Source: Erpobdella octoculata
Lineage: Eukaryota > Annelida > Clitellata > Hirudinida > Erpobdellidae
Length of the DNA stretch: 64,000 nucleotides
Assembly (NCBI GenBank): GCA_963978895.1
Contig: OZ022238.1
Span: 26,566,617-26,630,616, forward strand
Direction: 5' to 3'
Each line of letters begins with the position of its first letter. Positions within the stretch are counted from its first letter, which is position 1. Of this stretch, positions 2,561 to 55,684 are shown piece after piece. The translations under genes were made by a program, and so were the position numbers. The notes beneath the pieces are model-generated. The model was not told the DNA's origin and did not search any database. It was given only the letters and a program-made list of their open reading frames with translations.

Positions 2561-2653
2561 AATCGTTTTGTTAAAACCGATGGAACAGCTGAACTTTTAT
2601 TGCTTATTGTCCCGGCAACCGGCTGGGTAATAGTTATAACGGTTCACTCATAG

Positions 2654-2660
2654 TATATAA
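2654..2660 (+). promoter_or_regulatory. Candidate TATA box of the ammonia-lyase gene
   Basis: TATATAA lies about 103 bp upstream of the first ATG (2763) of the lyase gene, a position compatible with initiation near 2685-2690. In DNA this AT-rich such a match is weak evidence. Confidence 0.35.
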
Positions 2661-2762
2661 ACCGTATTTAGAGTCCGAGCTGTTATTATTATAGCTTAAG
2701 CCGAGCTGTCAAGCACTTCAGATATTTAAAACGTTTTTTATTAAATTTCTTTTTAGATCTTC

Positions 2763-5700
2763 ATGGAGAAACAAAAGTATTACGATCACGTTGAAACAAT
2801 TGTGGGCTTGATTGAAAGTTTTCAAAAGTCTGCTAATACCCGATACATTATTGATGGAACGTGTATCGGTATTGCCGACATTGCAAACATTGCAAAACAT
2901 GATTTTTCTGATAGCAATATCAGAGTTGAAATGTCCACGAGTGCCAGAAAGAAACTAATTGAAAATGCTGCTTATCTCAGACACTGTTTAGATGAAAGAA
3001 TGATTATTTATGGAGTGAATACAGGTTACGGTGGCAGTGCTGATGTAAGAAACAAAAATATCGTAGAAAATCAGAAGACTCTAATTTTTCTTCTTAACTG
3101 TGGCTCGCTAAGTCAATGGTAATACTTTTTTCTTTGAATAAGGATATTCGCTAACTTTTTTTTAAACTATCCATACATCAGGATATATAATTTTTTATAT
3201 TTTTATTTCTATCAGTTTGGATGTTGGGCATGTAAGGGCTGCCATGTTCATTCGGGCTAACAGTTTGAGCCGAGGTTATTCAGGTGTTCGTCCTGAGGTA
3301 GTAGATCTTTTGTGTGGTATGATCAACAACGACATTGTTCCATTGGTGCCCCTTCGAGGTTCAGTCAGTGCGAGTGGTGATCTTTTACATCTCTCCTACA
3401 TAGCTGCTTGCATGAACGGTTCGAAACAAAAATCTAAAGTTTACTACAAAGGAATGTCAAATGAAACAGCAGAATCTGCTTTTTCTCTAGCCGGCTTGAA
3501 GTTTATGGAGTTTCAAGCTAAAGGTTAAAGCACTTACGCAAACATGCACTTTGGTTTTAATTGAAAAACTAAATGTAAAGAAGTAAATTTGAAAAATTTG
3601 AAAATTATTTATTTCTTTTTCAGAGGCTCTAGCCGTTACAAACTCAGCTTCTTGCGCTTCAACTCTGGCGGCGATCAACCTGTTTCATTTCGGCTATTCT
3701 ATTCTACTCACTGAATTGATTACTGCAATGTCTGTTGAATGTCTGAAAGGACACATCGAATCATTCCATCCAACCGTCTACAACTGCCTGCCTCATGCCG
3801 GGATGAAACAGTTTTCAATCAACATGAATCGGCTTTTAGAGAAATCACAATTCGCAAAGTAAATATGTATTTGATATTTTTACATTGAAGAGTAGTGCAT
3901 TATAGTGCCGCTTTGAAACAGAGCTCAGGCAGTAACAACAGGAGGGGCTCATGCGTATGGGACCACAGTTGGACAACCCATATATATATAACAAGTACAT
4001 AGGCTCTATCTACCCTTATGATCGACGTCCGACTTTAGCGTTTTTGTGTGGCCTGTCTAATGGCTCTGTAAGATGATCAATTTACCTTATTAACCTAAGT
4101 TGTTGACTTAGAATTTATTTAACTGGCCCAAGAAAAGTTGGCAACTCGGCCCGGCCCATTTCATAAGTTAAAATTCCACGCCTAGCCCGTTTTTACAGAC
4201 CTTACATCTCTATACCTGGAGCAAAAAACTTCGGCTTGGCCCGTCTGAAAACCACAAAATAAAGGCCCGTGCAGTACTTTAATTAGAAAGTTGAAATGAC
4301 CTTCACACGTGTGCCGCATTTGTACTTATGACGTGGTTATCGCGAGGTGGATGTGTTTACCACTCGGTTATTGACAGTTTAAATGCTTTATTCATCGTTA
4401 CATATGATTTAACAGATCATTTTTACAAAATATTATGAAAAATTTAAATATTTAAAATGTTAGAAAAGATTGTCAAACGGAATTTAGTTGAGCATCTAAA
4501 AATCAGCAAAGCCATGAAAAGCTTTGTAACAGGAAGATCCTGCTTAACTAATCTTCTAGACTTCTTTGAAAATGTTTACAAAAATCTGGATGAAAACAAC
4601 TCAATAGATCTAATTTATCCAGACTTTGCAAAGGTTTTTGACAAAGTACCTTATGAAAGACTAGAAAAAAAATTGCATGCAAATGGAATACAGGAGAAAT
4701 TACTTAAATGGATCACAAACTGGTTGAAAGATGAAAAACAACGAGTAACGATCAAAGAAGCGGTCTCAAGTTGGATATAGGTAACAAGTGGAGTTCAACA
4801 ATGGTCAGTGTTAGGAACACTATTGTTCATAATTTACATAGACTCCATTGACAATGGAAAAGCCTCAAAAATTTCAAAGTTTGCAAATGACACCAAATTA
4901 TGTGCAAAAGTTAACAACAAAGAAGAAGCAAACATTTTAGAAAGTGGTCTAGTAAGATTATTCGGGTGTTCTACAGACTAGCAAATGCTCTTCAATATTG
5001 ATAAATGTGCAGTAATGCACATAGGAGCAAGAAACAAGAAATTTGACTACCAACTTGGAGAAAAACAACTGAGATCAACAGAAAAAGAAAGGGACCTGAG
5101 AATCATCACCCACCAAGACTTGAAACCATCAAAACAATGTCAGACAGCTGCGACCAAAGCAATCAGAACTGTGGTAAGCAGAAAAAAATATTATTTTGAA
5201 CCTGTACAAAACTCTAATGCAGCCTCATCTAGAATACTGTGTCCACGCATGGAATCCGCACTTGAAAAAAACAAAGAAATTCTATAAAAAGTTCAACAAA
5301 AAGCAACAAAATTGATTAAGGAATTTCAAGCATTAAAATACGCGGATAGGCTGTCAAAGTGCAGCTTAACAACGTTGGAAATAAGAAGAAGTAGAGGAGA
5401 TCTGATTGAAACATTCAAGCTGATGATAAACAAAAAAGGTATTCCAGCATCAAGATATTTCTAAGCACCTGCGTTTGACGGTTTTGTGCGCATTCAAATA
5501 AAAAGCAAATCAAATAAAAAAAATATTTGCACCATCGAACAATTGCGAATAGCGCACCAAATTTTTATTTATTAGAATCCGCATTTTTCAAATAAATGTG
5601 CACAATACGTGCGCAATTGTTCGCATTATTTGCAATTGTTTGCAATTATTTGAAAAATTGTTTGAGATTATTGGATGTGAATGGAAAACTTTATACCAAA

Positions 5701-8190
5701 ATTTTTTAAGATGAGTCAGTAAGCATTTTTTAATTACAATTCTTTTGAAAATTAGTATAAATAATAATTATTTTGAATTGTTGACATAAATTCATTTTTA
5801 TTTGAAACTTTTCGTCATAAAAAAATTTCTAAAAGAATTTCTTGTTTCTGTTTTGCCGACACCGACAACACTCATATTTTGCGTTACTATCTTTCGTTTC
5901 CGCTTCTCTTCAATTCTCTTGAAATTTCTCAATGTCAGCGACTGTTTCTGAGGATGATGTTAGCGGTTTCAGTGTAGGAAGCGAGAGTAATTATAATAAA
6001 AAGTCAAGTAACATGTTATAAAGGTATTTTAAGAGAAGTAAATCCAACGATGGTTACACGACGAAATGCAATCTTTGTAATAAATGTTTCAAAATGGGCT
6101 AAAAAGCTACAACTTCTTCTGTGAATTATAATTTACATTCTCAACATCCATCCAAATAAAATGAATAACAGAACGTTTTTTAAATAACAACATAAATTAT
6201 CACTTTATGAAATATTGAAATTATTCAGTAAAATTCACAACAAACAGTAAAGAAAATTCTTGTGAACTTTGAAATCAGAGGTAATTGAAAATATTATAAA
6301 ACTGCTGGGCTTTGTTGCACCAAATTAATATTTTTATATGCGCAATTATTGGGTTTTTTGTGCGTAATAATTCGGTTTTTTGTGCACAATTATTCGGTTT
6401 TTTTGTGCGAAATTGTGCGTGATTTTTTAAGCAATTTTTGGTTCCTTGCTCACTTGCAAATGAGTGCGCATCAAATAAAATATTTTATTTGAACCTATTC
6501 GGATCGGATACAAATTGTGCTCAATTGTGCGATTTTCGCATAATGCGCCCAATCCCGCATCGAACGCAGGACCTTAGTTTAAATGCTTTATTTATCGTTA
6601 CTTATGATTTAAATAACCAATTTTACAAAATATTATAAAAAATTTAAACATTTTGTATGCAGACACAGTTTGGACAAGATGTTAAAATTTGGAAACAAAA
6701 TATCGGATGATAACACACTTGCTCAGGACAGATACGGCTTGCGGACTTCTCCACAGTGGTTGGCTCCATGCATTGAAACGTTGAACGAATCAATCAGAAG
6801 GATTGAAGTTGAACTCAATTCGTCCAATGACAATCCACTTGTTGACCACGTTCAAGGTCAAATACTTCATTGCGGAAACTTTCAAGGTTCAGTTTGCAAT
6901 ATTTTTCAGAAACATACTTAAAGAGAAATATTTTATTAACACACTTTGTACATGCAGGCAGTAGTATAACAGTTGCAATGGACCAAACAAGACAGTCAAT
7001 TCAAATGTGTGGCCGTTTGATATTTGCCCAATTGTCTGAGATTCACAATCACCACATGAACAATGGTCTTCCACCAAACCTCTCCGGGTGCGACTACACA
7101 AAAGATTTCGGATTCAAGGTTCGATTCGAAATTTGCAATGTTTTTAAATGTATTAATAATTATAATTTTATCTGTTTAAAAAAAGTTTGCTTGAATATGT
7201 CTTAATTACAGTTAAAAAAGTTTCAGTTAATATAATTAAAACTGTAATAATGACATCAGGGTATAGATGTTGCCGTGGCTGCGTACACAAGCGAACTGGA
7301 TTTCTTGTCTGGTCCCATGACAAACCACGTGATGAGTGCAGAAATGCACAACCAATCAATAAACTCGATGGCTTTGGTCAGTGCAAGAAAAACTGCCGAA
7401 ACTCTTGAATTGCTCAATTTACTTATTTCTTCGTCACTGATCAGTCTCTGTCAGGCTGTTGATTTGCGGTGGATCGAGAGTGAGATAAACAGAATATGGA
7501 CAAGCATCACAAAGGAGATATTCTCTAAAGAAATTTCAATGTATCATACGTTTTTTAAAACTCAATAATTTTTTATTAATGTATCATACTTTTTAGAACC
7601 TAATTATTTTCTATTAAAAAATTAAACTTAACAACTTTTTTTACGAATGGTAATTGCTGCAGGAAAAACCAATCTTGGCATTGGTATGACGCAGCTTTCA
7701 GATTTGACCAGATTGTCAGTCAGATGAGAGAAACAAACTCGTTCAAGCAGGCCACTGTCAATGGACAGAATACTAACGATCTGATAAACTCGTTAATTAA
7801 TAAATTCCATGAAGAAGTTAACTCATTATTAACTCTGATAAATAATGGACAACAAATTGAAAGAGTTTCTCAAATGTTGGGAATCGGTAAGTGACATTTA
7901 GATTTTACTTTAGTTCAGAAAAAGTAGACTAATCAGCAATTAGTTTGCGTGTTGTTTTATTAAGTTTTTAATGCTTCAAATTTTATTTGAATTGTAAGCC
8001 GTTTTATTTATATTTATTTATTTACACACATCCAGGCACAAGAAAAATGTATGTATACGTGAGAAGAACGCTTGGAATAAAATTTTACAACGGCACTGAA
8101 ACACTCGACACTTGTGTTGAAAAAATTCTCGAAGCTATCAAGGAACGAAGCATTTTGAATGTCATTTCTGATATTTTTAAACAGCAGTGA
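2763..8190 (+). CDS. Phenylalanine/tyrosine ammonia-lyase (PAL-type, MIO enzyme), 8 exons, 647 aa
   Basis: Non-oxidative deamination of an aromatic amino acid to the cinnamate-type product and ammonia, using an MIO cofactor formed autocatalytically from Ala-Ser-Gly. CDS exons: 2763-3118, 3216-3523, 3624-3858, 6663-6886, 6958-7118, 7260-7540, 7663-7886, 8036-8190 (1,944 nt, stop TGA). All junctions are GT-AG and phases join without a stop. Visible motifs: catalytic-Tyr loop YGVNTGYGGSADVRN (Tyr83), MIO triad in SVSASGDL (171-173), QDRYGLR, NDNPL, GNFQG, NNGLPPNLSG, SAEMHNQ and LCQAVDLR. The C-terminal part (YVYVRRTLGIKF) matches the extra domain of plant/fungal PALs, which animal histidases lack. 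GGSAD and the MIO context also favour fungal/plant PAL over histidase. Leu110-Leu111 occupy the substrate-selectivity site; the Tyr-selecting His is absent, so Phe is the likelier substrate (inference). An aromatic aminomutase remains possible. The exon 6 donor (7540) is the least certain junction. ATG 2763 is the first in frame. Confidence 0.92.
3859..4375. other. 5' part of lyase intron 3
   Basis: Intron 3 (3859-6662) is about 2.8 kb, against 71-149 bp for the other six introns. This part has no gene. Around 4136-4280 it contains degenerate CGGCCCGGCCC-like motifs that also occur, in the opposite orientation, at 57230-57420. Confidence 0.5.
4376..4453 (+). repeat. Left copy of ~78-bp direct repeat flanking an intronic insertion
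   Basis: This segment (starting AGTTTAAATGCTTTATT) recurs at 6576-6653 with about nine mismatches in 78 bp. The two copies bracket the LINE and hAT-like insertions. The right copy runs into the intron acceptor, so it is probably the original intron end and the left copy its duplicate. Confidence 0.8.
4454..5460 (+). pseudogene. Degenerate LINE reverse transcriptase in lyase intron 3
   Basis: Frames at 4457-4780 and 4985-5287, with stops between, contain decayed RT motifs: a KSFVTGRSCLTNLL segment, DFAKVFDKVPYERL, WITNWLKDEKQRV, VTSGVQQ-stop-SVLGTLLF and FANDTKL in place of the usual FADDTKL. The FADD to FAND change hits a catalytic aspartate. It is 5'-truncated, and differs in sequence from the LINE at 530-2066. 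Confidence 0.85.
5461..6576 (+). mobile_element. hAT-like element with BED-finger remnant and imperfect terminal inverted repeats
   Basis: The left end (CTAAGCACCTGCGTTTGACG) and the reverse complement of the right end (CTAAGGTCCTGCGTTCGATG) pair over about 35 bp. Inside, from ATG 5932, a broken frame shows a BED-type zinc-finger pattern (TKCNLCNKCFKMG then NLHSQHPSK), interrupted by two stops. AT-rich subterminal motifs containing TGCGCAATT recur. No clear 8-bp target duplication is visible. It sits 3' of the LINE remnant within the ~78-bp repeats. Confidence 0.65.
6576..6653 (+). repeat. Right copy of ~78-bp direct repeat
   Basis: This is the partner of 4376-4453. It ends nine bases before the acceptor AG (6661-6662) of lyase exon 4, so it is part of the splice-acceptor region. 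Confidence 0.8.
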
Positions 8191-8259
8191 CCAAAAATGA
8201 TTAAAAAAAATTAATTTGATGAATATTTTCCATTAATCAAGTTAACTATTCTGCTGAGT

Positions 8260-8273
8260 AATAAATGAATAAA
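8260..8273 (+). terminator. Polyadenylation signals of the lyase gene
   Basis: Two AATAAA hexamers (8260-8265 and 8268-8273) occur about 70-80 bp after the stop codon. Confidence 0.55.
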
Positions 8274-8439
8274 TTTTAGTGTAATGCGTATTGTCACTTC
8301 TTCACAAAAAAATTCGTTATAATTTCCAGACATATTCAATGCATGCAAACAAAAACACCAATAAATGAAAGAAATCACTTCACAATTTATATGCGTTTAT
8401 TAAATTAGGCCATCGTTTCCTTCATCACTGTTATCACTC

Positions 8440-8617
8440 TCACCGCCATCATTTTTCTAATATATCATTATCATCATTTTCCTTACATACCATTATCAAC
8501 ACCATCATTTTCCTAATATATTATTATCACCACCATCATTTTCCTTATATATCATTATCATCACTATCATTTTCCTTATACATCATTATCACCACCATTA
8601 TTTTACTTATATATTCA
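8440..8617. repeat. TATCATTATCATCACCATC-type minisatellite (left part)
   Basis: Degenerate units of roughly 40-45 bp are built on ATCATTATCATCACCATC and TTTTCCTTATA. The array resumes at 10856, on the far side of the SAP-type LTR element, so the LTR element appears to have landed inside the array. Confidence 0.75.
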
Positions 8618-8755
8618 TGTAAAATCGATGATTTTACGATCAGTTTTCCATTGATAGAGTTTAATAGGATTTATTAAGCTTCATGAATGAATTTTCCAAT
8701 AAAAACGGCAAAACCATTCTATGAAGCCCGGTATACGTTTGGTGATATCGTAACA
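8618..8755 (+). repeat. LTR, left copy, SAP-type element
   Basis: It starts TGTAAAATCGATGATTTTAC and ends TGATATCGTAACA. It matches 10290-10425 and 10717-10855 with few differences. It contains AATAAA (8699-8704 region). Confidence 0.85.
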
Positions 8756-8780
8756 TTGGTGTCAGAATTGGGATAAAAGA

Positions 8781-10286
8781 ATGGTTTTAAAATCATTGGA
8801 TGAGCTTTGGGCGAGTGAAATGAAAGACGAGCTGGAGAAACGTGGCCTGAGCGATACAGGTAAAAAGGACGAACTTATGGAACGCCTTTTAGCCACGTTA
8901 GTGAATGAAGGCTATGGGCCTGACGACGATGAATATTAGTTCGATATTGACGAGGAAGCTGTGGTTAAGCGGAGAAAATTGAAAAACAAAGTGCTGGAAG
9001 AAAAAAGACAACAAGTGAGAGAAAACATGGCAGCACAGGGGAAGACAGGAGAAGGAATGATTCTTGGCCACGAAAACAAAGTAGCAGCAGCCGGTACAAC
9101 TGTTGAGAGTTTGGTCGCAGAGTTGGCTGAGGCAGTGGTGGACACGGTTCTGGACCAGCGGGTTGCTGGTGATGTGGGTTGCTGCGGCGAAACCCAATTT
9201 GAACTGGAGTCCACCAGCTGTGTCTCAGAGCATGTGACGGATGACGGCCGCACAGACTGCACAAGTCAGGTGGGTCATGATGATGAGCCTGTCAAAGACG
9301 GTCATGATAAGGAACCTGTCAAAGACGGTCATGATAAAGAACCTGGCAAAGATGGTGACAATGGTACGAATAGCAAAACGATGAGGATGAAAGTGACGAT
9401 GATGATTATAATAATGGCAATAACAACTATGGCTTTTACCCATACAGCGACGGTTCTGAAACGGAAGCCTCCATAACAGACGACGGCACCGAATATTCAG
9501 GGTCAGATTTTAGTGACGAATCTGACTCGGATGAAGCAACCGAAGATTTAGAAACGGACGAAACTTCAATGGAGGAATACGTCAAAGTTAACTTGACAAA
9601 AAAAGAAGACACTGATTTGAGAGACGATGGCGATAATTTGAAGAAAGATCCGCTGGACGATACGAAAGTTGATACCGACGAAAGAGCCGAGTTGGAATGT
9701 GAAAAGAAAACGTTCGCTTGTAGCTTGGAAGAAAACAAACATGACGGCGATGAACTTTTCCAAAACAACAATAGCAAGCAAAAACTCTGAAAAAGATGAG
9801 CCAAGAACAGAGAACGGTACCGAGGGTTCTAAATCAGATGAATCCACAGAGGATTCTAGATCAGATAGACTAAGAGTCATTGTAAAATCAAATAACAGTT
9901 TGATGAAGGGATTTATTGGATTTATGGAACGTGTTTTCGAAAAACCTTTTGAAGAGTTTTTTGAGAAAGATCTAAAAGATGTGAAGGAAGAAGAAAAAGC
10001 AGACAATTCCGATAAACTGTGCAAAGATGTTCAGGACGAGGCATGCAAAAAAGGCTGTGATGAACCGTGCAGAAATGGCGACGATGAGCCAAAGAAAGAC
10101 TCTGTTGATGAGCCAAAGAAGGACTGGAAGAAACTGCATCAAACGGTCAAGAGACTTGACCATGTTGTTCGCGAATTGCGGTCAAAGCCACGAGTAAAGA
10201 TCAAGTTATTTTTGTGTTTGTGGCCGAGTCGCATTTCTCAAAAGCGACTATGCTGTTCGGGACGAACAGAATTAAGAAAGGGGTAA
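8781..10286 (+). pseudogene. SAP-domain, acidic gag-like protein of the LTR element, broken
   Basis: From ATG 8781 the frame reads SLDELWASEMKDELEKRGL then TGKKDELMERLL, a SAP-type helix-extended-helix motif usually linked to DNA binding. An in-frame TAG at 8937-8939 is followed by the same open frame to 9476. Beyond it, successive frames encode a highly acidic Asp/Glu/Lys-rich region with GHDKEPVKD repeats (about 9280-9350) and DEPKKD repeats (about 10080-10130), reached only through frameshifts. No zinc knuckle is seen. Gypsy element 2 has a comparable SAP-like segment at the start of its Gag. Function beyond that is unknown. Confidence 0.65.
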
Positions 10287-10945: not shown

Positions 10946-11064
10946 CGTCTAAGTTGTTTACGTGTGGTGAAGACCAGAATTTTTTATTTAAATGATTTCC
11001 TTTCAGTCATCTGTTGTTTCTCTGGCTGTAATTGTTCCGTCGTTTATGGCAACGTGTGCGGTTT

Positions 11065-11384
11065 ACATGCAATTCATCGTACATGCAATTCATCGTACAT
11101 GCAATTCATCGTACATGCAATTCATCGTACATGCAATTCATCGTACATGCAATTCATCGTACATGCAATTCATCGTACATGCAATTCATCGTACATGCAA
11201 TTCATCGTACATGCAATTCATCGTACATGCAATTCATCGTACATGCAATTCATCGTACATGCAATTCATCGTACATGCAATTCATCGTACATGCAATTCA
11301 TCGTACATGCAATTCATCGTACATGCAATTCATCGTACATGCAATTCATCGTACATGCAATTCATCGTACATGCAATTCATCGT
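11065..11384. repeat. Perfect 16-bp minisatellite, 20 copies
   Basis: Twenty tandem copies of ACATGCAATTCATCGT, all identical as far as I can read. Because 16 is not a multiple of three and no frame meets a stop, all three forward frames stay open and produce three overlapping spurious 147-174-aa ORFs. It lies about 0.8 kb upstream of the extracellular-protein gene. Confidence 0.97.
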
Positions 11385-12210
11385 ACATACAAAAAACGAC
11401 ACGATAATGTTGGAAGCCTCGTTAATATTTTGTTTAACGTTGAACATATTATTAAGCTGGGGTTTCATCACTTTCTCGTTGGGTCAACGAAAAAACACAC
11501 ATACATGCTATACTAACTGACCTAACTGAACTAAGACCTAACTTTTATTTGTGTCGGTATTTTAATTTTAAACCAGCCTAACTCTACCATGTTTTTGTGA
11601 GTAAAGTCACAAAACTTGGATAAAAAAAAGATGTAAAAAAAGAGTAGAAGAAAATTAAACAGGATCAATTTATGGTCGGCGTCAGAAAATATTTTGGTAT
11701 TTGTCACATACTGCTCCTGATTCAGTTTTAAAACACTGTGTCATGAAAACTATAAACTATAATAAAAAAAAGTACCTAAAACAAAATAAATAAGAAACAG
11801 CAAAAGTTGATCAAAGATTATTTAATATATTTCTGGCATACTTTATAAGCAAATAACTCCAACGAGTAATGAAAATTCCAATAACTGTTGCCTCTTGAAA
11901 AAAACCAATGACGACAACAGCCAAGCAGCTGCGATGATAGCTAAACAACAAGCACATTTGGACGTGTCACCTTTAGAATGGCGAGTTGCATTTTGTTGAT
12001 TCTCTTGATCGATGAAATGGTTACTATAGAGACAACGGTAAACAGTTCACTTAATGATCTTTGGTGCCCTAAAACACACCAGGTATTAACATCGCTAACC
12101 TCGACCGGCGGTCACAGAGATATTTAAATAGATTTTGAAAATAAGCAGCTCGTTTAATAACTGCTGAATAATCTTATAGAAATTTTTGAGCAAATTTTAA
12201 ACTCATCTAG
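11385..12210. other. Intergenic region upstream of the extracellular-protein gene
   Basis: AT-rich DNA with no gene recognised. The promoter of the downstream gene should lie here, but no distinctive TATA or initiator could be singled out. Confidence 0.4.
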
Positions 12211-33298
<21,088 letters not shown>

Positions 33299-36172: not shown

Positions 36173-36565
<393 letters not shown>

Positions 36566-36595
36566 ACTGGTGTCAGAAGCAGGATACTTTTGGAA

Positions 36596-39500
36596 ATGGG
36601 TTTAATTACTTTGGAAGAATTGAAGTGCTCAGATTTAAAAGGGCAGTTTCTTCTGAGGGGTTTATCTACTATTGGCAAAAAGAACGAGCTAAAAGAAAGG
36701 CTGCAACAATCTCTCGAAGGTGAAGGAAAAGACCCAGATACTTTTGAGTTTGAAATCAAAACCCCAATGGAATTGATGACATTGATGAGAGAGGAAAGCA
36801 TAACAGCACAAGAAGAAAACAGAGCAGCACAAGAAGAAAACAGAGCAGCACAAGAAGAGAACAGAGCAGCGCAACGAAAAATTGAAGAGCTAATTATTGA
36901 CGATCGGCTTCGTTTATCAGAAGTTGAAAACAGAGTCAGTAACCTAGAGAAGCTGGTGAAAGAAAACGTCGGAGAAATCGAAACAAGATTGAACAATATG
37001 GTCAAACAAGTACAGAATGGTTGCCATATCCAAGAAAGAATTCATTCCGTTAAACATGCCAAGACCCCGGCTTTTGATGGCACTGTGTCATGGTCCGTCT
37101 ACAAAGCTCAATTTGAAATTGCTGCCAGAAAAAATAATTGGTTAACCAGCCAGCAGAAGGCGGAAAATCTGGTATTTTCTTTGAGGGGAGAAGCCTTACA
37201 GCTTCTCGAGCTTATTGCAGATAGTGATGATTACGATGCAATCGTGAAGGTTCTCAAGAGCAGATTCGGTAATCAACACGCGCCAGAAATTTTTCGAGCT
37301 CAACTCAAGTGTCGACGCCAGAAACCCGAAGAAAGCTCGCAACAGCTGGAAGCGGATATAGAACGACTCGCAAATCTGGGATATCCCTTGTGCCCTCGAA
37401 ATGTCCTCAATACAATTATTGCGGATGGATTCATAGCAGCCTTGAAGAACTCTGAAACCCAAAAGGCTCTTAGGGTTGCCCGCGTAGCTAGTCCCAGCGA
37501 AGCTTTGACATTTGCAATAAATTATGAAGCCTCTGTGGAGCCATCTGATGGGTCTCGTCACGTAAAAAAATTGGGAAGCAAGGACGAAGATGAACTGGAT
37601 GATCGAGTCCGGAGAGTTATTAAGGAAAGAATTAACTGGAAAGGGAATAGCTCACCACGCTGCTGGAGTTGTGGAAAACCGGGACATCTACAAAAAGACT
37701 GTATAATTCAGATGTTTAGACCCAGGCAACAGGAGAAAATGGATCACTGTAGGCGTAATGATGTCAAACAAGGAAAACCCATAAAGGCCCAATCCAACAA
37801 GAAAAAATCAGATTCTGTGAAGGTAAAAGATAATTTGCCTTGCAGAGTTGTGCCAGTTACCGTTCTTGTAAAAGGAACTAGTTTATTTGTGGAAGGTAGA
37901 TTAGGAATGAGAAATTGTAAGTTTATTATTGATACGGGAGCTTCTTGTTCAATCATAAAACCTTGTTTGGCGAAAGGAGAGGTTTTACAAGGTGGAAAGC
38001 ACATCCGTTTAAAGACTGCAACAGGAGAGCTTGTTCCAGTAGTTGGCAAAATTTAAACTGAAATAAGGCTGGGAAATAAGACTTTTCAGCATCAGTTTTT
38101 GGTTGCTGATATAGAGGAAGAATGCCTACTTGGGCTTGACTTTATGAGAATTCAGGGATTTGCAGTGGACTTAAAAATGGGAACATTCAGACAGGGAAAT
38201 ATGGAAATACCTGTTTGCTATAAAGGCGAAACAAATTCGATAAAGCGAGTATTGGTAACAAAGAGCATCATTGTACCTGCTCAGTCGGAATCTTTGGTTT
38301 GGGCAAGAATAGAGAATGAGAAAAACTTAAGAGTTGTTGGGTTCATCGAGCCCCTGAACGGAGTTGAAAAACATGGATTAATGATTGGAAAAACACTGGT
38401 ACGAACGGAGTCAGGAAGCTACGTGCCAGTCAGAGTTATGAATGTGACAGAATGCGAAAAGCAAATAACAAAAGGTGATGAAATTGCGGTATGCAGCCCA
38501 GTCGATCACATAGTGGCATGTACCACAGTGGTTGGTAAAAATAATAATAAAAAGAGAATGAAGTACTCGCAAATTCAAAATCTGCTTGAAGCCGCTAAAA
38601 CTTCATTAAAACCAATGGACTATGTCAAAGCGGAAAAGCTGATTGAAGAATATTGTGATATAATAGCTATTGACGAAGAAGACAATGGGAAAACAAAGAT
38701 CGTTGAACACCGAATTCGAACTGGAAATACAGAGCCCATTCGTCAACTGCCACGAAGGCTTCCACTGGCAAAACGAGAAGAAGCTAGAAAGATGCTAGAA
38801 AAGATGAAGAAACAAGGAGTTATTGAACCATCCAATAGTCCATGGAGTTCACCTGTAGTACTTGTAAGGAAGAAAGATAACTCGCTACGTTTTTGTGTCG
38901 ACTACAGAATGTTGAACGAGGTCACACAAAAAGATAGTTACCCTTTGCCCAGAATCGATGACACCATCGATACACTTGCGGGATCTCGAATGTTTTCTAC
39001 TTTAGATCTTAAGAGTGGATATTGGCAAGTGGGAATACATCCCCAGGATCGCGAGAAAACTGCCTTTTCAATAGGTGAAGGATTGTGGCAATTTACAGTG
39101 ATGCCATTTGGCTTGTGCAACGCACCCGCTACTTTCGAGCGACTTATGGAGTATGTGTTACAAGGATTAAATTGGAGAACGTGTCTTGTTTATTTGGACG
39201 ACATTATTGTTGTTGGAAAGACGTTTGAAGAGCATCTACACAATCTTGGAGAAGTTTTCCAGAGGATCCGAGATGCTTGTATGAAGCTAAATCCGTCGAA
39301 GTGTGCACTTTTCAAAAGCAAGGTGAAATATCTTGGTCATATAGTTTCTGCCGAAGGGGTAGGAACCGATCCTGAGAAAATTGAAGCGGTTAACCATTGG
39401 CCTGTTCCGAGAAACTCTCAAGAATTAAGAAGCTTTCTTGGTTTGTGCACATATTATCGACGATTTGTAGCCAGCTTTTCCAGCATTGCAAAGGAACTAT

Positions 39501-41398
39501 ATAAGCTTACAGAAAAGAATGCACCGTTTGATTGGTCAGAGGCAAATCAACAGGCGTTCGAACGGTTAAAAATAGCTTTGAGTTTGACGCCAGTTCTGTC
39601 GTATCCAATCCCTGGAAAAGATTTCCTATTAGACACAGATGCAAGCAATGAAGGAATAGGGGCAGTGCTTAGTCAAATTATTGACGGTAATGAAAAGGTT
39701 ATAGCTTATTATAGCAGAACTTTGTCGAAACCGGAGCGCAATTATTGCGTCACCAGACGTGAGTTATTAGCAATCGTTGATTCTATTAAGCACTTTCACA
39801 AGTATTTATATGGTCAAAAGTTTTTGTTGAGAACGGATCACGCTGCTTTGAAATGGCTTTTAAATTTTAAAAATCCAGAAGAACAAGTGGCTAGGTGGAT
39901 CGAACGTTTACAATCATACGAGTTTGAAATTCAGCATCGGAAGGGTGAACAGCACAAAAATGCTGACGCACTGTCACGACGACCTTGCAATGATGAATGT
40001 AAGTATCGCATTCGCATGGAGGGAAAGGAAATGAATAATCAGTGTTTTCAGGTACGGTTTCAAATTGACGACACTTGGTCAGATGATGTGATTCGAGACG
40101 AACAGTTAAAAGATGATGATATACGGCCGATTTTGAGATGGATGGAAGAAGGGAAGAAACCTGACTGGCAAGAGATTTCTGAATTGAGTCCTGCTACTAA
40201 ATCGTATTGGGCACAATGGGACTCTCTAAGGATTGTAAACGGATCTCTAAAAAGAATTTGGGAAAGCACTGATGGTTCCACCAATGTTTTGCAATTAATT
40301 ATTCCAAAATTAAAAGTGCCAGAAGTGCTCCAACAAATGCACTCCGGAGTATCAGGGGGACATCTAGGGATGAATAAAACGTTGGACAAGATCCGCCAAA
40401 GATTTTATTGGGTATACTGTAAGATGGATGTAGAGGAATGGTGTAAAAAATGTGATACCTGTGCCGCTAGTAAAGGACCACACGCTAAAACAAAGGGCCA
40501 TTTACAACAGTACAATGTAGGTTCCCCTTTTGAAAGAATTGCTATAGATTTAGCAGGTCCATTTCCAGTGTCAAAATCTGGCAATAAGTACATTCTTGTG
40601 GTCATAGATTATTTTACAAAATTGCCAGAGGTTTTTGCTATACCTAATCAAGAAGCAGTGACAGTTGCCAACGTTGTTGTTGATGGCTGGGTTAGTCGCT
40701 ATGGAGTACCAATGGAGCTCCATTCAGATCAGGGCAGGAACTTTGATTCACAGCTGTTTAGAGAAATGTGCCGTGTTTTAGGCATACATAAAACCCGCAC
40801 AACTCCCCTTCATCCTCAGTCTGACGGTATGGTGGAACGATTTAATCGAACTATTCAACAGCACTTGTCTAAGATGGTCGGTGAAAACCAAGTTGATTGG
40901 GATAAACACATTCCGTTATTTTTGATGGCTTACAGAGGATCGGTTCACAACACGACGAAGGCCACTCCAAGTAAAATGTTATTTGGACGGGAGATGCGAC
41001 TTCCTTGCGATCTTATGTTTGGAAGTCCGGGAGACAAAGTAGAATCGGAAAGCGAGTATGCCTCACAATTGCGGGCTCGGTTAAATGAAATTCATTTTAT
41101 AGCCCGAAATAGGATCAAAGCAGCCAGCGAAAGAATGAAAACTCGGTATGATCGTCAATCAAATATGAAAGAGTTTAAAGAAAATGATTTTGTGTGGTTC
41201 TACAATCCACAACGTAAAATTGGGAAATCACCTAAACTTCAACAAGACTGGGAAGGACCATATAGAATTATTAAAAAGATCAATGATGTCATCTACCGGA
41301 TTCAAAAGGGCCAACGTACTAAGATGAAAGTAATTCATGTTGACCGCCTTGCCAAATATTATGGAGGCAATGAAACTGTTCGGGACGAACAGGATTAA
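36596..41398 (+). pseudogene. Gag-Pol polyprotein of gypsy element 2, one in-frame stop
   Basis: From ATG 36596 the frame gives an N-terminal SAP-like motif (LITLEELKCSDLKGQF, GKKNELKERLQQ), a short coiled coil with four near-identical AAQEENR repeats, a capsid-like region and a CCHC knuckle (CWSCGKPGHLQKDC, ~37661). An aspartic protease (IIDTGASCSII) and then a single stop at 38054-38056 follow. The same frame resumes with the end of protease, RT (YLDD at ~39190), RNase H (DTDASNEGIGAVLSQ) and integrase with HHCC finger, DLAGPF and HSDQGRNF. The catalytic-Glu region DGMVERFNRTIQ is present. The C-terminus (IHVDRLAKYYGG) resembles the tail of other gypsy integrases. Apart from the nonsense codon it looks complete, about 1,600 codons. 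The track start at 36500 lies in the LTR and is a TTG. Confidence 0.93.
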
Positions 41399-41406
41399 GA
41401 AGAGGG

Positions 41407-43679
<2,273 letters not shown>

Positions 43680-48011: not shown

Positions 48012-48826
48012 CCAAGGCGGTTCCGATATGACTTTTTGCCGATTATGCCGATACCGCGTATAGCCGATTATTAAAATTGCCGATACCGATTATGACGCCG
48101 ATTATTTTATACTTACTATTTCTTTAGTGAAAATGCTTCTTCCGAAACATACCGCCATAATAAAAGCGCGTGTTTTGCTGTTTGCATGCGCTAGCCGTGA
48201 TAATTCAACCAACGTTTACACAACCATAGAACAATAATTATTTATTAAAATTATAGTATTGAAAAGAATAAAATAATAATCCAGTAACTAATTCTAAACT
48301 AATAAAAATACAAAATGGATAAAAATTTATATTGAAGATAGCTACAGTTCAAGAGTTAATAATTAAAGCCAAGTTGAGGTAAGTTATATTTAAGTAATAA
48401 TAACATTTCTCTCTTCTCGGCGAGCAACGATCCACGCCGATCCGAAAAAATTTCTCCAGCGCCTTTGAAGAGCTGCTCACTTGGCACGCTGGAAGCTGGT
48501 GCAGATAAATAGCGTCTAGCTATTTTCGCTAAATAGGGATACTGAAACCTGTGAAGGTTCCACCAACTATACATGTCTTCCTCACGTGGCAACAGAGGGG
48601 CTGCCAGATAAAGCTCCAGCATGGCGTCAACCGCATCATCGCCATGTGTAATGGTAGTTTCATTTGCAGTTCGAACAGGTTCATCACAAGCCTCAGAAAA
48701 CAAGTACAAACAGTTTTTTTTTTAATTTTAATCGGCACCGATTACTTTTACCGATTACCGATTATGCCGATTACGTCAATAATCGGCCCGATTATGCGTA
48801 CGCCGATTAATCGGGCCCAGCCTTAC
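48012..48826 (-). mobile_element. Internally deleted hAT element, 815 bp
   Basis: Near-identical 8-bp flanks CTTGGAGT (48004-48011) and CTTGGACT (48827-48834) bracket termini CCAAGGCGG and, reverse-complemented, GTAAGGCTGGG. Subterminal GCCGATTA/TAATCGGC motifs are abundant. It retains only the transposase C-terminus on the minus strand. Confidence 0.82.
48356..48709 (-). pseudogene. hAT transposase C-terminal dimerisation domain
   Basis: The frame contains ELYLAAPLLPREEDMYSWW then YPYLAKIARRYLSAPASSVPSE and FSDRRGSLL...LLLLKYNL, the classic hAT dimerisation motif. The N-terminal BED finger and catalytic core are absent. Confidence 0.92.
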
Positions 48827-51903: not shown

Positions 51904-54900
51904 ATGTCTTCGCAGGCAGCGGCCCTCCAGGGTTATAACAACGAACTAGTCCAATGTATGTTTAGAAATATATGCTGTTTTTACGTTATTAATGTTTGTT
52001 GTTTTGAGCACTATTTAGTTGACTTTTATCCGCTCGCTGAGACTGTCGGTTTGTTTTAAAAAAATGCTAAGACTCATATCATATCCATATCTTATAGGGA
52101 GTCGCACGGAAAAATTTAATTGAAAAAAAATAATTAAAATTTATATTTTTATTAAAGATAACAACAATAGAAAACAAAATTTACCAACATTTTTCTTCTA
52201 CGTGTTATATTAACGAAGTTATATTGATTTGAAGTTCACGCGTCGGATCCCATCTCTAAGCCTGAATGAGCATTAAAAATGACCAAACGCATGTACGTCG
52301 CTTCTCATGCGCGATAGCACATTACAGGCTGAGCTCGCGTATAACTATATTACTCTTTGTATCTTTCAATTCTATACAGCCTTATAAATTATAAAGCCAA
52401 TATAAATTTTTATTTTGAAATAATTATTAATTCAGCTAATAGATAAAAGAATAAGTAAAAACACCACATAATTTAAAACATTTATTAATAAAACAAACAA
52501 AATGTAGCGAAAGTTCGTTGTCTGTTTGTTTTTTTAAGACTCATTTGTTCATGATGTAGGTCGCAGTCAATTACTTTCTGTAACTTATCAAAACTTGATC
52601 TTTAAATTGCCCCCTCCTCCTTTCCCAGGCTTGGGACTGGCTTGCCAATGCAAGGCGGAGTTACGGCGGCTGTCTGTCATGGAGAACGCTTGGATGACAG
52701 TAGAAAACGGAAAATGAATGATAGTTTCAACTTGTCAACTATACTTGACTGAAAATGTCCATCAGGACCATAGTTACTAAGCCTTAGTTACTTTAACGTT
52801 TACGTTATACTTACAATCTGGTGTTCGTGCCATAACTTGTAAGTTGTCTGTCACATGGAAAACTGTTGACAACTCCGAATACCCGCATCATCTTAAACAA
52901 GAAATTTTCCTACTCAGCGTCTAGATATAACTATAAATTTTTACCATGTTACAGATACATATCTGAAGTTTATACTTAAAAAAAGATAATTCATAAAACG
53001 TTGTTATTAAAAAAATTATAAGGTAGCAAACTTCAAACTATATTACTTAGCCTACTACGCGATTAGGGTGCGATAACTCCGAATACCCGCATCATCTTAA
53101 ACAAGAAATTTTCATACTCAGCATCTAGATATAACTATAATTTTTTAACATGTTATAGATACATATCTGAAGTTTATACTTAAAAAAAGATAATTCATAA
53201 AACGTTATTAAAAAAATTATAAGGTAACAAACTTCAAACTATACTACTTAGCCTACTAAGCGATTAGGGTGCAATAACTCCGAATACCCGCATCATCTTA
53301 AACAAGAAATTTTCATACTCAGCATCTAGATATAACTATAAATTTTTAACATGTTACAGATACATATCTGAAGTTTTTACTTAAAAAAAGATAATTCATA
53401 AAACGTTGTTATTAAAAAAATTATAAGGTAACAAACTTCAAACTATACTACTTAGCCTACTACGCGATTAGGGTGCGATAACTCCGAATACCCGCATCAT
53501 CTTTCTTAAACAAGAAATTTTCATACTCAGCATCTAGATATAACTATAATTTTTTAACATGTTATAGATACATATCTGAAGTTTTTACTTAAAAAAAGAT
53601 AATTCATAAAACGTTGTTAATATTAAAGTTATACGGTTTCTAGTAAGCGCTTATTTTGCTCAATATATACCGCTGCTTACAGATTAGGGCAGGCTTACGG
53701 CGCGTCAAAAACTAAAAAGTGCCTCTGTTCAAAAAACGTTTTTCCTATACCCAGCGTCCTCTTAGACAATAGAAATTTTAGTATGTTGTAACTGCATAAT
53801 TTCTTAGTATAGTAGCCTTGACAAAATAGAAAAAAAACACCCTCGTTTTAAGATAAATGATCTCAAAGAACCACTAACTTTGAACGAATGTTCAAGGAAA
53901 ATGATTTGAAAATAAGGCTATTTATAGGCTTCATCAAAGGCACGGGTTTATTACAAGTTCAATGATGTAACCATTTCTAAAATTGACCCAGTAAATCAGA
54001 AGCTATGCATTTTCTTGTAAACCCACTTCGAGCGGTGCATTTTTTTACGTTGGTCAATTTATTGCACACAGATAGCTTGGCGTGATTCGCCTGCGCGTCT
54101 CAGGCGTGCGACTCCCTACATATCTTAGCTTAGCCGTTAGCCTAACTAAGAAGACTATCAGTAAAGTTAAAGTTTCAGCTTTACATAGATTTTAGACCTG
54201 ACTTAATCCTTTTCAGGTAATTTGGCAATCATTTATAAGTAAATGATTACTTGGACTTACAGGTTGTAATATATTAATAAATGAACACGGGAAAGAGTGG
54301 CTTCTGAGTTAAAGTTAAAACAACCCAAATAAAATCAAATAAACTGTATTAATTAAATTGAACCAAGTTAAATTTGGAAAACTGATTTAAATAATCATAA
54401 GCGGAAATACGAGAGCTAACTTTACTACATTTTATTAGATATGTCAATGCTTATTGCTCTCATTCAATTTGACTTGAAGAAATGTAGCCGAGGGTGATTG
54501 ATTTTTAGTAGCCGTGCTATGAATTTAATAGAGGTCACTAGGAGAATGTAGTAGTTTAACTGTGTATTGCAAAACTTATTGTAACAGACTTGTATATGGT
54601 ATAAACTCAACGTATTCATCAAATAAATATTTTAAAATAAATAAATATTTTTAATTGAGCAGGTTTGGAGGCATTAAAAAAGAAAAGAGATGAACTGCAA
54701 GATTCAATTGTTGAAGAAGAAAATGAAAAAAAGAGACTAGAAACAGATATAAAGCATCTGACAGAACAGTTAGGAAGCACGAATCAAAGTTTAGCCAAAA
54801 AGATGCTGGCAAGGAATGAAATTGACAAGACTATATTAGAAACAGAAACAGCCTATTCAAAAGTTTGTGCTATGTTATATGAGCTTATTTTTTAGTACAC

Positions 54901-55684
54901 TTTTTTTTTCTTTTTTTTTTGACAATATTTAGAGTGGCGTAAATCCTAAAGGACTTCAAAGCCACTGAAGGGTTTTTTGCAGAGGCAGCCATTTATAGGC
55001 GCCTACCCCTTTAGCAATGCGAGTGAACTCCTTGCTTAAGGGAGTTACGCTGGTGCGGTGAGGCTTGAACTGCCGACCTAATGATCGACAGGCGAACGCT
55101 CTACCGCTCTGCCACCAGCGCCTCAACTGAGAGAAAAGATAATTTGGCAACTTTGCTGTTTGTCCAGTGTTCCTCAATGCCTCCTTCAATTTTGAAGATA
55201 TCGACCTAATTTTTTTGGTGGTAGGCAGCGTCTATGTGTATGTCCTAGTAGAGAACCAACAAAAGGAATTTGATTTGCTCAAAAGGGACGTGACAAAACT
55301 TGAAATTCTTTTTTAGCGTTAAAATTACTGTTTAAGCTCTATTTTAGTCAAGTTTGCAATAAGAAAAAAACTTGGGAAAAATATTGCACCACATATTAAA
55401 ATGTGAAAACTTTATTAAAAGTTTTATGCTTATTGATTTGTAATAATTATTAAAAACTTTCTATAAATTAATTTATTGAATTAAAATTTACTTATCTGCA
55501 TGACAAAAATGTTCTATGTATTTCGTTAATAAATATAGTTTTTTCAATGTTTTTATACTAAATAAATTAAATTACTTTTTAGATTTTAGAAAGCTCACAA
55601 ACACTGCTGAGATTTCTCAAGCAAGAAACTACAAAAACCACATCTTTACTGCCTGGGACCTCATCAATTTCAAAAAAATTATGA
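51904..55684 (+). CDS. SSNA1: SSNA1 (NA14-like) microtubule/centrosome coiled-coil protein, 3 exons, 117 aa
   Basis: SSNA1 proteins form coiled-coil fibrils that act at centrosomes, basal bodies and microtubule branch points. CDS exons: 51904-51955, 54663-54862, 55583-55684 (354 nt, stop TGA); both introns are GT-AG and phases join (1 then 0). The N-terminus MSSQAAALQGYNNELVQCLE, the middle KKKRDELQDSIVEEENEKKR and LARNEIDKTILETETAYSK, and ILESSQTLLRFLKQE match the family along its whole length. The size (117 aa) is that of the human protein (119 aa). The protein is nearly all helical coiled coil. Intron 1 (2.7 kb) holds a tandem satellite; intron 2 (0.7 kb) holds a minus-strand SINE. ATG 51904 fits the conserved start. 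Nothing suggests a link with the neighbouring genes. Confidence 0.95.
52610..52665 (-). repeat. Short copy of the GCGAGCCAGTCCCAAGCC repeat
   Basis: The minus strand reads AACTCCGCCTTGCATTGGCA then AGCCAGTCCCAAGCCTGGGA and GGAGGAGGGG, matching the head of the repeats at 18428 and 34217. Confidence 0.65.
52868..53640. repeat. ~204-bp tandem satellite, 3.8 copies, in SSNA1 intron 1
   Basis: Units begin at about 52868, 53072, 53273 and 53477, each containing AACTCCGAATACCCGCATCA, TAGATATAACTATAA, AAACGTTGTTATTAAAAAA and CGATTAGGGTGC. Units differ by a few percent. The last is truncated. Confidence 0.95.
54932..55122 (-). mobile_element. tRNA-derived SINE, minus strand, in SSNA1 intron 2
   Basis: On the minus strand the head has box A (TGGCAGAGCGGTAGAGCG) and a box B-like CAGTTCAAGCC. 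A body with GGGGTAGGCGCCTATAAATG follows, ending near GGATTTACGCCACT. Confidence 0.75.

Follow-up and report, generated by a model that had tools for sequence, protein, structure and literature searches.

Phenylalanine ammonia-lyases (PALs) are a well-known kind of enzyme, with solved structures from parsley (1w27/6rgs/6f6t) and from Rhodotorula/Rhodosporidium (1y2m/1t6j). In the available text of a 2009 study, the eukaryotic PAL cluster comprises plants and fungi only and transfer between the two is proposed; a reviewer of the same study held that presence in a common eukaryotic ancestor, followed by losses, remained possible (PMC2657906). The tyrosine ammonia-lyases (TALs; Rhodobacter 2o6y, FlxA) and the histidases (hutH) share the fold of these enzymes and its 4-methylideneimidazole-5-one (MIO) group, as does the Taxus phenylalanine aminomutase. 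Substrate preference follows a residue pair, which in the accessible part of PMC3789393 is Phe-Leu in PALs, His-Gln in mixed enzymes and His-Leu in TALs, and a TAL has been switched to phenylalanine by a His to Leu change, at lower activity (PMC8750797). Here we describe a PAL-type gene from an annelid, at 2763-8190 of a 64,000-nucleotide stretch of the Erpobdella octoculata genome (the window; 26,566,617-26,630,616 of the 52.9-Mb contig C1, in an assembly of 386 Mb in 94 contigs). We consider it probable that the gene is intact, belongs to an old lophotrochozoan family, and encodes an enzyme that prefers phenylalanine and derives from a His-type ancestor.

The gene joins eight exons in frame (648 codons with the stop, 647 amino acids) and has no internal stop, as a first-pass annotation of the stretch had proposed. 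All seven introns are GT-AG; that annotation also called them short, which fails for intron 3 (Table 1). The protein matches PF00221 (aromatic amino acid lyase) at E 6.5e-127 (424.5 bits, cut-off 27.3) and narrowly passes the NCBIfam phenylalanine ammonia-lyase profile TIGR01226 (524.4 bits against 519.15), with every other family matched in the NCBIfam scan below its own cut-off. Among solved structures, plant PALs score highest (354.7 bits), followed by fungal PALs (327.5) and a cyanobacterial PAL (216), with histidases at 163 or lower, apart from chain 9eq5 (208 bits), which is a histidase in one list and a Planctomyces PAL in another. The PF00221 fold is common to the window protein, parsley PAL (40% identity, partial) and Rhodotorula/Rhodosporidium PAL (37%), and at all 14 positions inspected, the MIO triad and the catalytic residues, the protein is identical to parsley PAL. 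It has in common with plant and fungal PALs the Ala-Ser-Gly triad, the catalytic Tyr/Asn/Gln/Arg/Lys/Glu set and a C-terminal region extending past bacterial length; residues 500-647 align with full-length relatives, which bears out the eukaryotic-type C-terminus and the full-length PAL-type gene of the first-pass annotation. It differs from them in length (647 against 716 amino acids), in carrying Leu-Leu rather than Phe-Leu or His-Gln, and in belonging to a separate clade. A modelled relative (P0001, not the window protein) aligned with a plant PAL over about 600 residues, up to residue 627; fungal PALs ranked below bacterial ones by Z in that structure search, and Z alone (39-46) leaves the PAL and histidase folds unseparated. 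By analogy with the family, Ala171-Ser172-Gly173 would cyclise to MIO, and a tetramer would convert L-phenylalanine to trans-cinnamate by elimination of ammonia; tyrosine may be a second substrate. The role may be phenylalanine breakdown, as in fungi, or the supply of cinnamate- or coumarate-type compounds.

A single-sequence search scored 8000 candidates, of which the best 120 are listed. Among these, 83 of the 84 top-ranked form one animal-type group, the remaining one being a cotton protein, and plant proteins come next at 34-36% identity. Organism names are attached to 22 of the 83, and all 22 are annelids, bivalves or Lingula: Helobdella, Ridgeia, Lamellibrachia, Capitella, Dimorphilus, Owenia, Mytilus, Mya, Dreissena, Mactra, Pinctada and Lingula. 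The taxonomy look-up covered Helobdella (robusta, a leech) and Lingula. Two or three copies occur in several of the species. A profile built from 25 members brought in two further fragments (Mya, Ridgeia), with plants again next, and animals other than lophotrochozoans may lie beyond the best 120. The expectation that such a gene would be unusual in an animal was thus right in that the gene is animal and PAL-type, and wrong in so far as it implied a gene private to this genome, which the annelid, bivalve and Lingula relatives reject. Some of these are already database records under automatic names ('phenylalanine ammonia-lyase 2-like' in Lingula, 'PAL' in Mytilus) that fall in the clade of the window gene. 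The same holds for Helobdella HELRODRAFT_78007, which is 58-62% identical to the window protein.

The tree was built from 71 rows: the window protein, 46 of the 83 animal-type relatives (after removal of fragments and near-copies), eight plants, nine fungi, five bacterial lyases or mutases and two bacterial histidases. The rows thus comprise no cyanobacterial PAL and no animal histidase. Animals (100/98), fungi (100/100) and plants (100/99) each form a clade, the three group together (100/100), and the 64 eukaryotic rows separate from the seven bacterial ones (100/100), four of which have long branches. Within the animals, the bivalves fall together with Lingula (100/99) and most annelid rows with one another (100/98), Owenia being outside both groups. 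The window protein pairs most closely with Helobdella robusta (100/99).

How the family reached these animals divides the evidence. A horizontal origin, in which an early lophotrochozoan received the gene from fungi, a relative of plants or some unsampled eukaryote and not by vertical descent, is an even call in our judgement. It would fit the confinement of the 22 named members (among the matches listed) to annelids, bivalves and Lingula, the plant and fungal cluster of the 2009 study as far as its available text goes, and the position of the animals beside the fungi in the best tree (95/71). The animal clade is however not nested within the sampled fungi or plants, groupings of fungi with plants (p 0.44) and of animals with plants (p 0.47) are still acceptable, and with names on 22 of 83 relatives and only the best 120 listed, other animals or protists may exist. 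Either fungi or plants may be the sister group, so that ancient transfer and vertical retention are both tenable. A transfer would have to be ancient and not a recent gain by the Erpobdella lineage, because the family occurs in many annelids, bivalves and Lingula. A close bacterial donor is rejected for the sets scanned: two conserved peptide patterns found one confirmed locus in 84,980 prokaryote species, a TAL/TAM-type sequence with 26% identity, and of 854 plasmid records the 40 listed reached 30-32% identity at best.

A second PAL-type copy in the same genome lies on the same strand 27 kb upstream (C1:26,537,099-26,542,337). It has the same eight exons with an uninterrupted reading frame, and groups with the window protein at 100/99. 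Of 647 residues, 19 differ between the two proteins (dN 0.0138, dS 0.0299), nine of them in exon 1. Codon 110, the first place of the selectivity pair, reads CTT (Leu) in the window gene and CAT (His) in the upstream copy, a single T/A difference, so that the window pair is Leu-Leu, that of the upstream copy His-Leu and that of Helobdella Phe-Leu. The Phe-Leu pair said to mark PALs is therefore absent from the window protein, the pair being a mark of preference and not of fold-family membership; the His-Leu pair of TALs is likewise absent from it and present in the upstream copy. Across the 79 of 84 animal-type rows that could be read, the first place is His in 47, Leu in 21, Phe in five and another residue in six, so the relatives mostly differ from the window in having His. 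The three nearest relatives outside Helobdella have His, from which we infer that His is ancestral and Leu new. After a tandem duplication, the upstream copy would have kept the His of most relatives and the window copy would have gained Leu through one base. This points to a window copy shifted towards phenylalanine and, by the published rule, an upstream copy capable of using tyrosine. The structures listed include Rhodobacter TAL His89Phe with cinnamate.

The window enzyme could instead be a TAL, or a mixed enzyme, in which Leu110 keeps tyrosine use and p-coumarate is a main product. We regard this as rather unlikely: the His of 47 of 79 relatives and of the tandem copy favours it, as do 15 further rows with Leu-Leu, whose activity is uncharacterised, but the published rule ties His, not Leu, to tyrosine. 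The window protein also scores far lower on the FlxA profile (248.9 bits, cut-off 700), and the fold length of the TALs sets them apart from the eukaryotic clade.

The two copies might also be a false duplication, with haplotypes assembled end to end and the Leu/His difference an allelic polymorphism. The 3-4% divergence outside the identical tract would suit this, as heterozygosity of that order is within the range of some invertebrates. In a comparison of the 30 kb upstream with the whole window (matches of at least 300 nt at 85%), only two gene blocks (2643-3920, 6598-8444) and one element of 89% identity (8703-10125) matched. The gene alone is thus duplicated: the flanks of the two copies do not match apart from that element, and the two intron 3 sequences agree only in places. 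None of the 91 nucleotide differences between the copies falls in the 745-nt stretch at 7440-8184, which none of 20,000 random placements of 91 differences equalled, so gene conversion between the copies is likely and a false duplication improbable. Clustering of differences near the selectivity codon (eight in 42 nt) is weak, being equalled by 836 of 20,000 random placements.

An aromatic aminomutase, which would form beta-amino acids and has this fold and MIO group too, is less plausible again. The Taxus phenylalanine aminomutase (39% identical) is among the top sequence and fold matches and one source labels relatives from Lamellibrachia in this way, yet the window protein scores 363.5 bits on the Taxus-type profile TIGR04473 against a cut-off of 1250, and the eight plant rows, Taxus among them, form a clade separate from the animals. 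Histidase identity is rejected. The window protein is about 25-26% identical to two bacterial hutH and scores 245.2 bits on the hutH profile (cut-off 539.15), and grouping it with the two histidases of the tree, both bacterial, is 193 log units worse (p 7.7e-6), so neither the tree nor the family profiles place it within the histidases. A third PF00221 place in the genome (L019; C8:24156780-24163318) is a separate hutH-like locus; all four pieces tested there are best matched by hutH, so an ordinary animal histidase seems to accompany the two PAL-type genes in this genome. An origin by contamination, or from a foreign contig wrongly assembled, can be dismissed: no support for it was found beyond a gene type foreign to textbook animal metabolism, while the gene lies in a 52.9-Mb contig with a tandem copy of identical layout 27 kb off and with cadherin/EGF and SSNA1 genes close by, Helobdella is its sister, its clade follows annelids, bivalves and a brachiopod, and relatives sit on 37-107 Mb contigs from Mya, Mytilus, Dreissena and Owenia, all in keeping with the integrated nuclear gene first proposed.

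Several observations weigh against an intact, phenylalanine-preferring PAL. The PAL cut-off is exceeded by 5 bits only, and the tandem paralogue (516.4) is narrowly below it. For the modelled relative, the Taxus aminomutase and plant PAL tie as top fold matches. At family columns conserved in at least 95% of rows the window protein deviates at seven of 100, including a Pro177 to His change four positions beyond the MIO triad; Helobdella deviates at nine of 98 and fourteen other rows at 0-8. The pair Leu-Leu departs from the canonical Phe-Leu of PALs, and the His altered in PMC8750797 is the second residue of the pair, the window's difference being at the first. The tree also requires at least 14 changes at the selectivity site, which is therefore labile and a weak guide.

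No description of an animal PAL was found among the results listed for the literature searched, where subscription journals and preprints were mostly not covered, and the accessible part of PMC9002059 does not mention one. The animal branch seems undescribed there, its sequences being public under automatic names. With lophotrochozoan animals as a supported third branch, the parsimony count in the debate on transfer between plants and fungi changes and needs redoing. Tentatively, and with less assurance than for the reading of the gene itself, a broader picture can be suggested: a third eukaryotic PAL branch in animals that predates the split of annelids, molluscs and brachiopods, and, in this annelid, a recent tandem duplication that split one tyrosine-capable ancestor into His- and Leu-types by a single base while gene conversion held the 3' halves identical, as a natural version of the laboratory switch from tyrosine to phenylalanine and as part of an unrecognised animal cinnamate/coumarate pathway. 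Annelids and bivalves may make their own cinnamate- and coumarate-type acids, which are usually read as dietary or microbial. The near-identical tandem pair, differing at the selectivity site, would allow a switch of substrate to be tested directly on natural enzymes.

There are eight frame-preserving models of the gene, with in-frame alternatives at three junctions (intron 1 at 3112/3182 and two others; Table 1). Homology favours the set chosen, except that it does not choose between the two possible ends of exon 6, where a 38-nt tandem duplication (7538-7617) gives two candidate donor sites. An in-frame stop lies upstream at 2754 with no ATG between it and the start codon, which together with the TATATAA and AATAAA signals is consistent with an intact gene. 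Intron 3 contains a reverse-transcriptase match (PF00078, 4448-4780, E 1.2e-7), and about 2.1 kb of it is flanked by the two copies of a 78-nt direct repeat (4376-4453 / 6576-6653, 88%). The models of 40 of the 83 relatives end shortly after the LGxG motif, at the site of window intron 7; 16 continue, and 27 escaped automatic sorting. Among the 40, P0024 is a doubtful case, and several of the 27 end there by eye. BLAST alignments end exactly at residue 597 in 16 of the 83 and at 375, the intron 4 site, in one (P0080), with none ending within three residues of the other five junctions. Intron 7 may thus be common to the relatives, and introns 1-6 may be absent where their frame is open across them.

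Table 1. Features of the PAL-type gene, in window coordinates
Feature	Position	Strand	Remarks
TATA-like TATATAA	2654..2660	+	About 110 nt 5' of the start codon; pattern only
Exon 1	2763..3118	+	Met1 to codon 119, phase 2 end; contains Tyr83 (catalytic Tyr loop) and Leu110-Leu111
Selectivity pair, codons 110-111	3090..3095	+	CTT CTT = Leu-Leu; tandem paralogue CAT CTC = His-Leu
Exon 2	3216..3523	+	Contains the predicted MIO-forming Ala-Ser-Gly
Ala-Ser-Gly, codons 171-173	3370..3378	+	MIO triad; MIO formation expected from family knowledge
Exon 3	3624..3858	+	Exon model
Intron 3	3859..6662	+	2804 nt; degraded reverse-transcriptase fragments
Exon 4	6663..6886	+	QDRYGLRTSPQW and NDNPL blocks; alternative in-frame start 6669
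Exon 5	6958..7118	+	Exon model
Exon 6	7260..7540	+	Lys428, Glu456, Gln460 region across exons 5-6; alternative in-frame end 7549
Stretch identical to tandem paralogue	7440..8184	+	745 nt; likely gene-conversion tract
Exon 7	7663..7886	+	C-terminal region begins
Intron 7	7887..8035	+	Phase 1 after LGI^G; many homologue models end here
Exon 8 and stop	8036..8190	+	TRKMYVYVRRTLG block, common to full-length relatives
Two AATAAA polyadenylation-type signals	8260..8273	+	At 8260 and 8268

The first-pass annotation named SSNA1 and an EGF/discoidin gene as neighbours; an SSNA1 gene and an EGF/cadherin-type gene were found. The EGF/cadherin-type gene begins at 12211, about 4 kb downstream of the PAL-type gene, with a cadherin match (E 1.3e-5, 26 bits) that is below the Pfam cut-off of 28.8, and the SSNA1 gene lies at 51904-55684, about 44 kb downstream (PDB match, E 2.1e-5). 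Directly 5' of the PAL-type gene is a reverse transcriptase frame of the long interspersed nuclear element (LINE) type (398-1321), flanked by long AT arrays. The 89% element at 8703-10125 is a charged, repeat-bearing frame whose second occurrence is upstream (L017:1807-3313), and it is probably dispersed. A 16-nt tandem array follows at 11064-11392 (20.6 copies, 99% match, unit TACATGCAATTCATCG). The remainder of the window holds many remnants of Ty3/gypsy, LINE, hAT and Helitron type, including two Ty3/gypsy-type retrotransposons (25824-30189, 36482-41395) with long open frames bearing reverse transcriptase, RNase H and integrase domains, a Helitron-like PIF1-type helicase frame at 41966-43084 (-) and a hAT dimerisation fragment at 48359-48721 (-).
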